The notes under the pieces: model-generated
The model's database searches: none
What the model saw: only the letters and a program-made list of their open reading frames with translations
Told to the model about the DNA's origin: nothing
Program-made: the position numbers and the translations under genes
Assembly: GCA_009746045.1 (NCBI GenBank)
Contig: RPFO01000026.1
Coordinates: 1,987,286-2,051,285 of the forward strand
DNA length: 64,000 nt
Origin: Mesostigma viride
Taxonomy: Eukaryota; Streptophyta; Mesostigmatophyceae; Mesostigmatales; Mesostigmataceae
Reading direction: 5' to 3'
In this document: positions 514 to 63,900 of the stretch, one piece after another
Position numbering within the stretch: position 1 is the first letter of the stretch
Layout: each line of letters opens with the position of its first letter

Positions 514-3500
514 ATGACGGGTGCCTATGGCGGGCGCACGATGGGGGTGGGCGGGAACCCAGACATGCGCTACCAGGGAGTCGTTCGCGCACGCGGCCTA
601 CCCTACAGGTACGCTGTGCCACGGTCCCCCCCACCCACAACGGATGCTGTTTGTGTCACGGTGTGCTGTCGGCTGATTAGAGTAGGAAGGGTACGACCTA
701 CCCTGCAAGTACACCGGGTGTCATTTCTCCCTCATCAAAATGGTTCTGATGGATGCCCTTGGTGTATAATTTGTTCTATTCCCTCTATTCAAAATGTTTA
801 TCCATGATGCCCTTGGTGTATAATTGGTGCTATTCCCTCTGTTCAAAATGGTTATCAATGATGCCCTTGGTGTATAATTGGTGCTATTCCCTCTATTCAA
901 GGTGTTTATCGTGGATGTCTTTGGTGTGTAATTACTGTGGGGTGGGTGCCCGTTATCATGCGGCGTCGCCGTATAGGTACGAGGTACAAAGGCCGGCATT
1001 TCCCCCCCACTCGAATTCCTGGTTTTGGTGGATGCCACTGGCCTATATTAACTGGCCTAGGATGACTCGGCCACTGGCTAGAAATATCAGTGCTAGTAGT
1101 TGTCCTAGTACTGGACAGTAAGATGGACCAAAGCTAAGCGCCCCGGGGTGCAGCCGTATAGGTAGGCGGGGCGGGGTGCCCCAGAAAAGAGCCTTCTTAT
1201 GTATGCGTATAAATCCCTAGGCATGCGTAGATCCCTGGGCATGTCCTGCATGCCTGCTTTTGCACAACGTGCACGCTTGGCTTTGCCGATGCTGGCTCAA
1301 CTTATCTAGCAGCGTGATGGACCTGGTTGTAAAATTAAAGACAATATCTCCTGAACGAAATGCGCTCTGCATGTTCCTCCCTGAATGCGGCATTCCTGAA
1401 TCTCATTCCAACTGCACCATCGCGTTCACCTTTTCCTCGTCTTGTTTGCCCCTTGCTCCCCTCTCCCTTCGTCTCTCTCTCTCTCTCTCTCTCTCTCTCT
1501 CTCTCTCTCTCTCTCTCTCTCTCTCTCTCTCTCTCTCTTCCCCCCCCTCTCCCTCCCTTCCTCCTCTCTCTCTCTCTCTCTCTCTCTCCTCTCTCTCTCT
1601 CTCTCTCTCTCTCTCTCTCTCTCTCTCTCTCTCTCTCTCTCTCTCTCTCTCTCTCTCTCTCTCGCTTCCCCCCCCCTCTCTCTCCCTTCCTCCCTCCCTC
1701 TACAGCGCATCGGTGGCGGATGTCTCCGAGTTCTTCCGTGGTTATGACATCGTTTCCGATGGCATCTTCATGGTGACGTCGCCAGATGGCCGACCCACCG
1801 GAGAGGTGAGGGTAGCTCCTCTTGTCAATTGTCTCCACCTGGAAAGGCGAGGTTCACGCCCCTTGACACGTGTAGCTCTTTCACCGCGTCGGCTGCAAGA
1901 TAGGTGAGGGTAGCGCCTTTCCTCTTCAAGGACTTCCCCACGCGAGAGGTGAGGGTAGCTTTTCTGTTCAGGGTGTTTACTGCTGGAGCGGTGAGGATTG
2001 CGCTGTGAACCATGTCTCTATTGCCCCTGGATCCATGTTTCCTCATGGAGAGGTGAGAATGTCGCCCTTAGGAAAACCATGCTTTCAATCGCACGGTGGA
2101 GACGTTGGTGATGTGCTTCGCTTGTACTGCGCTTGTTGTAGTGGACATCAAACATCAAACATCAAACAAACATCAAACATCAAACATCAAACATCAAACA
2201 TCAAACATCAAACATCAAACATCAAACATCAAACATCAAACATCAAACATCAAACATCAAACATCAAACATCAAACAACAAACAACTGCCCCCCAGCTCG
2301 CCGGCGTGCTTATGCCAGATGCGAGGGGCCATGAAATCAGAATGGGGTTTTAAAATATTTGATGTTGTCTTTTTTTTGTTTTGACGTCCTTTACCCAATC
2401 AAACACCGCCTCTTTCATGCACTGTGCTGCTTCCCCCCTCCCCTCCCCCCCCCTACCCCCCTCCCTTTTCACTGGTGGCTTGCCTGTCTTTCACACGGCT
2501 TCCCCCCTAACGCCTGAATCGGCCTGCCTGCCCATTTCTCCTTCTACCCCCCCCCCGCCACCACCCTACCACCACCCACCCCACCCCACCCCACCCCACC
2601 CCACCCACTGTGCAGGTATTTGTGGAATTTGTCTCAGAGGACGTTGCCCGCGGCGCGATGAGCCGCCATCGTGAGAAGCTGGGCGCCCGCTACCTGGAGC
2701 TCTTCCGCAGCTCCAAGGGAGAGATGATGCTGGCGGGCCAGCAGTCGGCGCACGCGCGGCCCTTCGGCATGTACGGCGGCGCGCCGGGGGGGGGCCACAT
2801 GGGGGCCGGGGTGGCGGGCATCCTGGGGGGGGCGCACCCGCACCATCCGTTGCCGCACATGTTTATGGGCATGGGCGCGGGCGCAGGGGGGATTCCCGGG
2901 GGGCAGGGCGGGAATGTGTGTGTCAAGATGCGGGGGCTCCCTTACAGCGCGACCCAGGTAGGGGGACATCGGGCGGGGGCCCTGTGCAACACTGAGATTG
3001 ATGTGCTACGCTAACCCTAAACCCTAAACTCCAAACCCTGAAACCTGAAACCTGAAACCTGAACCCTTAACCCTTAACACTGAACCCTGAACCCTGAACA
3101 GGTAAGGGGACATCGGGCAGGGCCCTGTAGAAGATATTGTTGATGGAGATGATACTCCTGGCAGTTGCCTGTTAAATGTGGTCTGGCTGCTTGTTCATGT
3201 TTGCCTGGTGGCAGATGGGAGAAAGGCTCTGCAGCTTATTTGCTGGCCATCCGTTCTATTTCCACACAGATCCTTTTTGCTTCTAGCCCGCCCATTGCTT
3301 CTAGTCTGCGCATAACAATGGGGCCCGGGCGTTCCTTGATGTTGAGACCATAGCGATTACAGGAATGCGGGCAGGAATATTTCATAGGCCATCTTCGTAC
3401 AGGCTACCCTATTTTGGCAAATCTCATACCCTTACAGGCAGGTTGTATCACAGCCTGATGGCTTTCTGTGCCGGGTCTGACTGGCCTTCACTCAACTTCT

Positions 3501-60900: not shown

Positions 60901-63900
60901 GGCTGAGCGCATCCCCAAGGACCTGGCCCGCACGTCCTCATACCTCACCAACCCCGTCTTCCACCGGTGAGTGTCTGGTTCTAATGCCTGTTGGGAGTGG
61001 TTTTATAGCACACCGCATCAACAGATCTGTCCCATAACGTCAAGGCGTGTGCATGCGATTAGTCATTCGGGATTGAACAAAGCTGGTTGATGGCGCACCA
61101 AGTGGGATGAGTGGGTGCTACATATCAGGATATATCAATGACTCCCTTTTGCTATTGGGGGCCGCACACCACCTGTTATTAACTAGAATCTAGAATAATG
61201 CGATTTCGAATTGCGATTGGATATTGTACCCCCTCCAAAATGCAACTGTGGACAAAGGGCTGCCCCCCATGTGTATTTCCCCCTCATTGATTCTTATAAT
61301 AATCCCTGCTCGCCCGCCCTCCCCCTTTACTGCCCAGCACTTGCTGGCACCTGGCACCGTTATCATTCACTACCACACCGAGCAACGAGTACGCGCTACC
61401 TGTCTGCTTGACCTGACCCCACTACCATTCCTGTATGTGTTTTTGTTTGTTTATGCTTTATTTTTGTGTTCTTGGCTCTTGCTAAACAACTAACCCCATG
61501 GCCGCATGGATCATGCACTGCCTTCCTATTTGAGATGACACCCCATGGCTGTATCTCTCTCTGTTCATGATTGTGCCCCCATCTGCCCATGATCTTGCTC
61601 GCGCCCTCTCCCCTCGTAATTTTTCCTACCCCCAGGTACCGCACCGAGCACGAGCTGCTGCGCTACATGAGCCGGCTGCAGGCCAAGGACCTGTCGCTGT
61701 GCCACAGCATGATCCCGCTGGGGTCGTGCACCATGAAGCTGAACGCCACAACGGAGATGATGCCCGTGACATGGCCCGAGCTGGCCAACATCCACCCATT
61801 TGTGCCCAAGGACCAGGCCGCTGGGTAAGTCTCCGAATATACTTATTACAAGGCTGCCCTCAAAAGAAGTAAGATTGCGTCATAAGAAAATGTTCTAACA
61901 TTCTATTTGGGTCAGGATGGTGCCTCCTTGCAACTTCATGAAGTCAGCCATCCGTTTGTGCCTGGGACTGGGTCGCTGGGTTAGTGCGCTCCTATTACCC
62001 TCGGCTTGGATATGACTGTGTCGTGATGCCCACTTGTCTTGGCTGGCTATGCCCCTTCCCGAAAAGCAGAGGCCGCTGGGTTAGTGCTGCCATGTGTACA
62101 GTGGCCCGCGTTGCTGTCCTATCGACGCTTCTTATTCTTACCCCCCTGCAGCTACCAGGAGTTGTCTGCTTATGTCCATCTTGCTTTGCCTCCTTGCACC
62201 CCCTTTGTTTCCCATCCCGCCGCTGCCCCCTCGCAGGTACCAGGAGATGTTCTCTGACCTGGCGGACATGCTTTGCGAGATCACGGGCTTCGACGCCATG
62301 TCCCTCCAGCCCAACAGTGGCGCGTCCGGAGAGTACGCGGGCCTGATGGCCATCCGCGCCTTCCACCAGGCCAATGGCGACCACCACCGCGACGTCTGCA
62401 TCATCCCCGTGTCTGCGCATGGGACCAATCCCGCGTCCGCCGTGATGGCTGGGATGAAGATCATCCCCGTCTCGACCGATTCGGCGGGAAACATCGACCT
62501 CGCGGAGGTCAAGGCACGCGCGGAGGAGAACAAGGACAAGCTGGCCTGCCTCATGGTCACCTACCCTTCGACCCACGGTGTGTATGAGGATGGGATCCGG
62601 GAGATGTGCGAGGTGATTCACAAGAATGGCGGCCAGGTCTACATGGACGGCGCAAACATGAACGCACAGGTCGGGCTCACCTCCCCGGGCCACATCGGCG
62701 CCGATGTTTGCCATCTCAACCTCCACAAGACGTTCTGTATTCCTCATGGTGGTGGTGGGCCTGGCATGGGGCCCATCGGAGTCAAGGCCCACCTGGCTCC
62801 GTTCCTCCCCAGCCACCCCGTCGTCCCCACGGGCGGTCTCCCCGTCCCCCAGGGCAAGAAGCTCGACCCGTTCGGTTGCATGGCCGCGGCTCCCTACGGC
62901 TCGTCCCTCATCCTGCCGATCTCGTTTGCATACATCTCCCTCATGGGCGCGGAGGGCCTGCGCAAGGCGTCCGTTCAGGCCATCCTGAACGCCAACTACA
63001 TGGCCAAGAAGCTCGAGAACCACTACCCGATCCTCTTCCGTGGGCCCAACGGGACCAACGCGCACGAGTTCATTGTCGACCTGCGCGGGTATGAGGCGAC
63101 TGCAGGCATTAAGGCGGAGGACGTGGCCAAGCGGCTCATGGACTACGGGTACCACGCGCCGACCATGTCGTGGCCCGTCTCCGGCACGCTCATGATTGAG
63201 CCGACGGAAAGCGAGAGCAAGAGCGAGCTGGACCGCTTTGTGAACGCGATGATCGCCATCCGCGAGGAGATCCGCAAGGTCGAGAACCAGAGCTGGCCCA
63301 AGGACAACAACCCGCTGAAGGTGAGGGCAGTGAGCCTTTTCTCTTTTATTTTATAAAAACTTTATTTTATAAAAACCTGTATTGAATTTTACGAATGCTT
63401 TTGTAGCGTGTATACTTTTTGTGGGGGGTCTAATTGCGGGAAGTAGGATGTGGTAGATGTTGTGTGTGGCTAGCCCAAGGACACTCCCCCACTCAAAGTG
63501 AGGGGCGGGGAAGCATGGGGAAATGGGGGGGATTGGGCGTTGTGGGATGCAGCACGGGTTGGCTTTTGCTGGCCAAACGAGGGGCCCGCTCAACATGATG
63601 GGGGCAGTAGGGGGGAGGACCTTGGGCTGACAGTGGGAGCAAGCTTCTTTACTCCTTGTTCTGTCAATATCCTGGATCGAACAAAAAGTGGCATAGCAAC
63701 ACCAGCGAGTTGACTGTGACTCTTATTTATATGACTAAACTATTACTCGTTCGTGCACTCCCCGGGTGTCCTCCTTTGCCATGTGGCCCACCATGCACAC
63801 ACCGCATCCCCTACCCCTTCCCCTTATCCACACACACATACCTGCCACACATACACAAACACCAGAACGCGCCCCACCCCCCAACAATGGTGATGTCGGA

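Follow-up and report, generated by a model that had tools for sequence, protein, structure and literature searches.

Exon-edge echoes in the introns of Mesostigma viride and their probable origin by local tandem duplication

Why should an intron contain degenerate copies of the edges of its own exons? This question is raised by a 64,000-bp stretch of the green alga Mesostigma viride (contig RPFO01000026.1, positions 1,987,286 to 2,051,285 of the forward strand; the whole stretch is hereafter called the window), in which sequence at exon boundaries recurs inside the neighbouring introns. We refer to these copies as exon-edge echoes. A first-pass annotation of the window had reported them in every multi-exon gene. 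In the present analysis the echo pattern was confirmed as real and survived the controls, and we consider it likely that echoes are produced by recurrent local tandem duplication of units of about 50-200 bp, including units that cross exon-intron boundaries. Long introns of some genomes are usually attributed to transposons. In M. viride, conserved exons act as fixed reference copies, so that duplications become recognisable and roughly datable and intron growth can be measured copy by copy.

Exon edges recur within their own introns

Each edge query comprised 40 exon and 30 intron bases and was aligned to the remainder of the same intron. The null consisted of 200 equal-length draws from the introns of other genes, and low complexity was masked. 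Short targets and masked queries were not scored, which left 39 of the 42 boundaries in the window and 55 of the 66 boundaries in the kinesin loci described below. In the window, 19 of the 39 scored boundaries beat all 200 draws (12/20 donors and 7/19 acceptors, with about 0.2 expected in all), so that the earlier estimate of some 16 boundaries was about right. With exon-only 30-mers, p<0.01 was reached at 7 of 20 donors and 7 of 21 acceptors. Echoes were present in all four modelled genes, as had been reported, though about half of the boundaries had none.

The four genes were modelled in frame with 21 introns in total, the fourth continuing past the window end. The models were picked for frame and domain retention and use the outer splice sites; their Pfam domains are RRM, PfkB, TPR and GDC-P.

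514..10366, +: hnRNP F/H-like RRM gene (HNRNP), 9 exons at 514-608, 1706-1805, 2616-2957, 4736-4792, 5795-5887, 6666-6736, 8027-8177, 8615-8899 and 10166-10366; in-frame model; RRM_1 E=5e-26, three stretches
24358..27428, +: pfkB-family kinase gene (PFKB), 4 exons at 24358-24702, 24845-25095, 25880-26369 and 27174-27428; in-frame model; PfkB E=3e-45
41991..50749, +: BBS4-like TPR gene (BBS4), 6 exons at 41991-42059, 42242-42526, 43735-43854, 44833-44949, 49057-49281 and 50348-50749; in-frame model; TPR families
57976..64000, +: glycine dehydrogenase P-protein gene (GLDC), 6 exons at 57976-58488, 59331-60323, 60866-60966, 61636-61824, 62237-63320 and 63866 onward, leaving the window; in-frame model; GDC-P E=3e-186

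The gene at 514..10366 is presumably hnRNP F/H, and the one at 41991..50749 is presumably BBS4, the name used in the first-pass annotation.

Further introns were sampled at kinesin-motor and TCP-1 profile matches in the same assembly (440 Mb, 2243 contigs). For comparison, the genome report gives 441.8 Mb in 2363 scaffolds for strain NIES-296, with a mean intron of 1142 bp and a mean exon of 329 bp (PMC6947507). These introns were set by the profile coordinates of exon pieces, without reference to echoes, and exon pairs with a profile gap of >14 or <-25 residues were skipped. The independent sample comprised 46 introns (33 in 19 kinesin loci and 13 in 4 TCP-1 loci), and the pooled sample comprised 67, including the 21 in the window. 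One of the 20 kinesin regions (L013) had no usable intron and was left out, and no introns were taken from L001-L008 and L029. Coordinates at L009, L021, L025 and L028 are given in gene orientation, which is the reverse complement of the locus.

The kinesin introns gave a similar result: 22 of 55 boundaries beat all 200 draws (14/30 donors and 8/25 acceptors). The self-alignment of edges, compared with the introns of other genes as the first-pass annotation had proposed, yielded a same-intron excess in both samples. When the donor edge of another gene was aligned with each intron, 0 of 61 comparisons were significant, and edges in the window seldom matched other introns of their own gene (11/166 at p≤0.01).

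A stricter single-copy test retained 15 copies at 11 boundaries in the window; the earlier count of about 30 copies was too high by this measure, although the strict threshold misses some copies visible by eye, as in HNRNP intron 2. In the 67 introns, the strict test found echoes at 24 of 64 donors and 8 of 63 acceptors, and depending on the test, about a third to half of donors carried one (20/64 to 31/60). Strict donor copies from the window and the other loci had a median identity of 85% and lay at a median distance of 155 bp (5-95% range 70-461 bp), a wider spacing than the 40-210 bp first described. The nearest donor copy, whose distance was used as a proxy for unit length, was at most 160 bp away at 20 of the 24 boundaries; the distance had quartiles of 90, 106 and 147 bp and ranged from 47 to 312 bp. 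The reported echo past the BBS4 stop codon was recovered at p=0.02 when the query contained 40 coding bases and at p=0.07 when it contained 100; in the same type of alignment test, no echo was found at the PFKB and HNRNP stops or at any of the four start codons. The echoes in the window are as follows.

957..1012, +: HNRNP exon 1 donor edge (boundary 608), z 5.7, beats 200/200 draws
1937..1970, +: HNRNP exon 2 donor edge (boundary 1805), best of several, z 5.4
near 1903, 1988 and 2057, +: further HNRNP exon 2 donor-edge echoes, by eye
3100..3128, +: HNRNP exon 3 donor edge (boundary 2957), z 4.4
4868..4909, +: HNRNP exon 4 donor edge (boundary 4792), distance 90 bp, z 8.7, 95% over 21
6842..6911, +: HNRNP exon 6 donor edge (boundary 6736), z 5.5
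8329..8366, +: HNRNP exon 8 acceptor edge (boundary 8615), z 7.1
8968..9030, +: HNRNP exon 8 donor edge (boundary 8899), distance 100 bp, z 4.3, also in the strict test
9491..9537, +: HNRNP exon 9 acceptor edge (boundary 10166), weaker, z 2.9, beats 200/200 draws
24750..24797, +: PFKB exon 2 acceptor edge (boundary 24845), weaker, z 2.4, beats 200/200 draws
26543..26611, +: PFKB exon 3 donor edge (boundary 26369), z 9.6
43530..43586, +: BBS4 exon 3 acceptor edge (boundary 43735), z 10.9
43903-43951, 44033-44084, 44137-44170 and 44246-44280, +: four echoes of the BBS4 exon 3 donor edge (boundary 43854), 82-94% identity
44705..44768, +: BBS4 exon 4 acceptor edge (boundary 44833), z 8.5, 88% over 40 aligned bases
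49452..49475, +: BBS4 exon 5 donor edge (boundary 49281), z 2.9
50885..50950, +: BBS4 stop-codon region (stop ends 50749), in the 3' flank, p=0.02
60396-60431 and 60510-60542, +: two echoes of the GLDC exon 2 donor edge (boundary 60323), 91% and 76%
61371..61402, +: GLDC exon 4 acceptor edge (boundary 61636), z 3.3
61945..62001, +: GLDC exon 4 donor edge (boundary 61824), z 6.4
62142..62189, +: GLDC exon 5 acceptor edge (boundary 62237), CAG intact, z 5.2
63469..63503, +: GLDC exon 5 donor edge (boundary 63320), z 4.1, also in the strict test

Young copies are tandem repeats across the boundary

Young cases reveal their structure directly. At locus L009 (2878-2977), a tandem array with a 70-bp unit and 97% identity runs across the donor, and its third copy is degenerate. 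At L021, a stretch of 35 bases (2128-2162), of which 28 are exonic, is found again at +88, +171 and +254, giving four copies of an 83-88-bp unit. Both cases, which resemble the boundary-spanning repeats known as mirages (see below), are head-to-tail repeats. Two arrays of the same layout lie inside introns of the window.

43046..43344, +: young tandem array in BBS4 intron 2, 47-bp unit, 6.4 copies, 99%
752..933, +: older tandem array in HNRNP intron 1, 54-bp unit, 3.4 copies, 88%

The BBS4 array represents an event of this type that does not involve an exon edge. Among the exon-anchored donor copies, 35 of 36 reached to within 4 nt of the exon edge, and 17 of 40 copies remained significantly similar beyond the boundary, on the intron side (p≤0.05; 2 expected). 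The young arrays and the anchoring at the edge support the first-pass proposal that introns grow by recurrent tandem duplication across junctions, with decoy splice sites left behind.

We suggest the following course of events. Non-coding DNA of M. viride would frequently duplicate locally in tandem, in units of roughly 50-200 bp, presumably through slippage or unequal exchange. A unit lying within an exon would destroy the exon and be lost, and a unit within an intron would be harmless. Where a unit crosses a boundary, the outer, original splice site would probably stay in use, and the second copy, consisting of exon tail, splice site and intron head, would join the intron, which would thus grow by one unit. 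This copy would be free to decay. Because selection would hold the exon half of the original, an echo should be recognisable for longer on its exon side than on its intron side. Repeated rounds would give rise to arrays in which the copy nearest to the boundary is usually the youngest.

The exon part of the copies ranged from 8 to 69 bp, from which a limit of less than about 50 bp imposed by selection was suspected; no such limit is claimed. A looser extension gave exon parts of up to 147 bp, and their distribution was not clearly non-uniform (Kolmogorov-Smirnov p=0.065, binomial p=0.035).

Intron interiors are repeated as well

The first-pass annotation had treated echoes as a property of exon edges. 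In this form the view was not supported: when both sides were searched, 63 of 223 intron-interior tiles in the window and 156 of 373 in the kinesin introns matched their own intron, as did 79 of 488 one-sided interior 70-mers. Tiles of intergenic DNA had a local match somewhat less often (37/231). In the 67 introns, direct repeats within one intron gave 185 alignments, compared with 9.1 (scaled) between introns of different genes and 15.5 in inverted orientation, and 36 introns contained at least one. The coverage by direct repeats was zero in the exon more than 70 bp from the donor and rose to roughly 0.3 at the donor itself; it was close to 0.15 between +16 and +60 and about 0.2 over the following few hundred bases. 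Of 26 interior events, 9 were abutting tandem repeats. The BLAST self-comparison returned no pair less than 75 bp apart, yet such units exist (11 of 29 pairs in an ungapped scan of the window introns were less than 80 bp apart, and the L009 unit is 70 bp); short units are therefore undercounted in the BLAST repeat counts.

To compare edges with interiors, uniform neutral tandem duplication was simulated with the exon half conserved. The expected edge-to-interior ratio was 1.4 for the 70-mer and 1.7 for an exon 40-mer; an earlier simulation had given 1.2-1.4, and the second one was used. Acceptors agreed with this expectation. For low-mask queries they scored 10/44 (70-mer) and 12/58 (exon 40-mer) against interior values of 81/471 and 71/489, corresponding to ratios of 1.3 and 1.4, and in a further comparison they were not significantly above interiors (14/46 vs 34/181). 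These results suggest that the emphasis on exon edges is partly a visibility effect, in that the conserved exon half keeps an echo recognisable. Visibility accounts for the acceptors. At donors it covers part of the signal and leaves a modest excess that is not fully explained.

Weighing the tandem-duplication model

Several observations weigh against the model. No direct repeat was found at the threshold used in 31 of the 67 introns, and 17 of the 26 interior events were non-abutting copies, which we read, without proof, as remnants of older duplications. Intron-side continuation was not significant in 23 of 40 copies; at L031, the exon side was 90-93% identical and the intron side had no detectable similarity (p=0.66). 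At L025, with a repeat unit of roughly 150 bp, the exon part was 97% identical over 58 bp across the boundary compared with 68% for the whole 222-column alignment, a contrast sharper than simple decay predicts, and re-duplication or gene conversion may be involved. In the window test, which used a less strict cut-off, 11 of 313 exon tiles at least 40 bp from the edge matched at p≤0.01, slightly above chance. The donors also count against the model. For low-mask queries they scored 28/57 (70-mer) and 20/63 (exon 40-mer), giving ratios of 2.9 and 2.2, above the simulation. With position-matched targets, 31 of 60 donors had a match compared with 31 of 197 interior points. Donors remained above interiors when the splice consensus was masked (20/60 vs 66/481), and they exceeded acceptors (31/60 vs 12/46, p=0.01).

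Other comparisons placed donors similarly. With an exon-only query and position-matched targets, they scored 20/64 against 37/201 for interiors (p=0.036). With targets of at most 400 bp, the counts for donors, acceptors and interior points were 12/20, 5/15 and 20/169 in the window and 20/43, 8/34 and 57/319 in the 46 independent introns. Shuffled introns were the other control proposed by the first-pass annotation: against 30 dinucleotide shuffles of the own target, the long query gave 18/60 for donors and 26/197 for interiors, the donor count having fallen from the 31/60 obtained with the other-gene null.

A donor excess larger than conservation predicts is what would be expected if transcribed 5' splice sites were favoured starting points of duplication, for instance through G-rich, R-loop-prone intron heads or transcription-coupled breaks, with echoes as a by-product of splicing or transcription. 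Introns would then grow outward from their donors, and echoes would form a dated record of splicing- or transcription-coupled mutation. The difference between donors and acceptors among exon-anchored matches (21/65 vs 8/66) points in the same direction. However, intron heads (+9..+48) repeated at 13/58 compared with 71/489 for interiors, which is no clear difference, the exon-only donor ratio is nearer to the simulation (2.2 vs 1.7), and selection against duplicated acceptors could produce part of the asymmetry. We regard donor-focused duplication as unlikely, both as the source of the echoes and as the way in which introns grow, and the donor excess as the most interesting point.

Many pairs are short, non-abutting patches tens to hundreds of bases apart, as would result from dispersed templated insertion, in which end-joining repair leaves 20-60-bp filler copies of nearby DNA. 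Such insertion should copy exon interiors as readily as edges. Exon tiles 40-100 bp from the edge matched in only 3 of 223 cases on the donor side and 4 of 227 on the acceptor side (about 3 expected by chance in 450), compared with 21/65 donor and 9/66 acceptor tiles at the edge itself. Since the interior of exons is hardly copied and the edges are, the exon pieces travel within a boundary-crossing unit. Anchoring at the edge, seen in all but one of the 36 donor copies, is demanded by tandem duplication and not by templated insertion, and therefore favours the former; inverted copies, which insertion should also generate, were rarer than direct ones (15.5 vs 185). Templated insertion was thus largely rejected and appears quite improbable.

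Copies decay without detectable constraint

Under the tandem-duplication model, copies are free to decay, and the decay observed was of a neutral type. Over 37 copies, the copy differed from the exon at 96/527 first, 84/534 second and 135/527 third codon positions (0.18, 0.16 and 0.26). The copies are not under coding constraint, and the surplus at position 3 agrees with synonymous substitutions in the functional exon. The distance of the copy from its original showed no frame preference (10/12/13 over 35 copies), and a coding or alternative-exon role of the copies found no support.

Many exon-anchored copies retain GT (19/35) or AG (5/9), as the first-pass annotation had noted, and one might suppose that echoes are kept as functional decoys because they regulate splicing, dock U1 or serve as alternative exons. 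However, when the query contained the donor, GT was intact in 29 of 41 copies compared with 0.73 predicted from identity squared, so that retention is no higher than identity predicts and selection maintaining GT is not supported. Together with the missing frame preference and the changes at codon positions 1 and 2, this makes a functional role very improbable; the suggested link to splicing regulation finds no support, there being no preferential retention of decoy sites. An origin of the signal in chance, in the shared splice consensus, in composition or in an assembly artefact is effectively refuted by the controls and has a negligible probability: low-complexity tracts and splice consensus can match anywhere in introns, and own-target shuffles lower the donor count, but low complexity was masked, the foreign donor edge never matched, interiors beat their own shuffles at only 26/197, and assembly errors do not make copies as degenerate as a median identity of 85% implies.

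The claimed decay with distance held in part. Among nine multi-copy arrays, the nearest copy was the most similar in six; it was tied in two, and in BBS4 intron 3 the order was reversed, the nearest copy being the least similar. Repeat coverage rose with intron length (Spearman 0.43, p=2e-4), although longer introns also give more room for matches. Local direct repeats made up about 17% of the sampled intron sequence (9254/54883 bp, one array-bearing intron left out). The 7.8-kb kinesin intron of L010 (448-8264 in gene orientation) includes an array of about 5 kb that repeats every 120 bp at 99%.

One echo occurs in two nearly identical contigs. L029 (C622:16150-23150) and L028 (C2:6329000-6336000) are 99.97% identical over 5.7 kb including the echo and then unrelated; the fragment on C622, a duplicate or an alternative contig in the assembly, copies part of C2 as far as the break. 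No polymorphism of the echo was seen in this single near-identical pair. C1641 and C887 likewise gave TCP-1 matches with equal scores.

Relation to known repeats and introns

The first-pass annotation knew of no description of such a genome-wide pattern. Minisatellite-like tandem repeats spanning exon-intron boundaries have, however, been reported from amphioxus as "mirages" in the Adh3, troponin C, globin and PGBD5 genes. According to these reports, the units measure 10-72 bp (Adh3), 150-160 bp (globin), and 60 and 108 bp (PGBD5, imperfect), occur at 5' and 3' boundaries, and keep their splice signals in many but not all copies, with splicing reportedly undisturbed (PMC3087553, PMC3902484). 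The M. viride repeats are likewise tandem in the young cases, cross the boundary, and affect donors and acceptors, and their nearest donor copies, taken as a proxy for the unit, mostly fall within the mirage range of 10-160 bp (20 of 24 boundaries within 160 bp). Judged on sequence, the echoes conform to the structural definition of a mirage. Unlike mirages, which are reported gene by gene in one animal lineage, the echoes are common and mostly degenerate, and are accompanied by intron-interior repeats. Among the literature matches listed, there was no report of the pattern for Mesostigma or another alga, which is not proof of absence. The lineage and the scale look new, the phenomenon itself being already described. 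A lancelet curiosity is probably extended to a green alga, in which echoes are common and old enough to be read as a fossil record of intron growth. They also offer many natural tests of how the spliceosome chooses between duplicated splice sites.

Tandem duplication that includes splice-site sequence has also been linked to intron birth, with examples from potato RdRp, vertebrate ATP2A1 and Drosophila (PMC4974935, PMC2891723); an intron-internal tandem duplication of 83 bp is noted in the potato paper as well. The Rogers-type gain described there alters gene structure in a related manner, but the new intron is born between duplicated AGGT copies, whereas in M. viride an existing intron is lengthened. 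Intron birth of this type was rejected for the echoes, since donor copies lie a median of 155 bp into the intron and not at its far end. Introners, the mobile intron-making elements, are reported to be alike between genes (PMC9860276). Like the M. viride repeats they concern recent intron sequence; the latter differ in that matches within one intron greatly outnumber those to other introns (185 vs 9.1 scaled). Ordinary intronic minisatellites form similar head-to-tail arrays, such as those of BBS4 intron 2 and L010; unlike them, the M. viride units may extend into coding sequence, and single copies that have decayed remain traceable through the conserved exon.

Other features of the window

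Telomere-like repeats of the plant-type CCCTAAA and the related AACCCTG occur at 173-209 and 3013-3099, the latter in an HNRNP intron, where it separates a donor from its echo. The acceptors of HNRNP exon 2 and BBS4 exon 6 are closely preceded by very long tracts rich in pyrimidines or in C (1472-1700 and 50063-50265, respectively), namely a TC repeat and a CCCCCGC array. HNRNP intron 3 contains a near-perfect palindrome (3525-3648, 124 bp at 87%), possibly a small foldback element.

Much of the rest of the window, judged by eye, is transposable-element-like. At 13777-14648 lie 218 CATC copies (99% matches), and six stop-to-stop frames, each 278-349 codons long, run through them. A long inverted duplication with shared flanks, seen by eye at about 15900-19680, is probably a mobile element, and its open reading frame at 16039-17445 recurs in reverse at about 18120-19530. 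Long direct repeats at about 32602-33390 and 39926-40704, near-identical by eye and about 7.3 kb apart, resemble those of a long-terminal-repeat retroelement and share a 65-bp tandem repeat (33107-33241 and 40428-40562).

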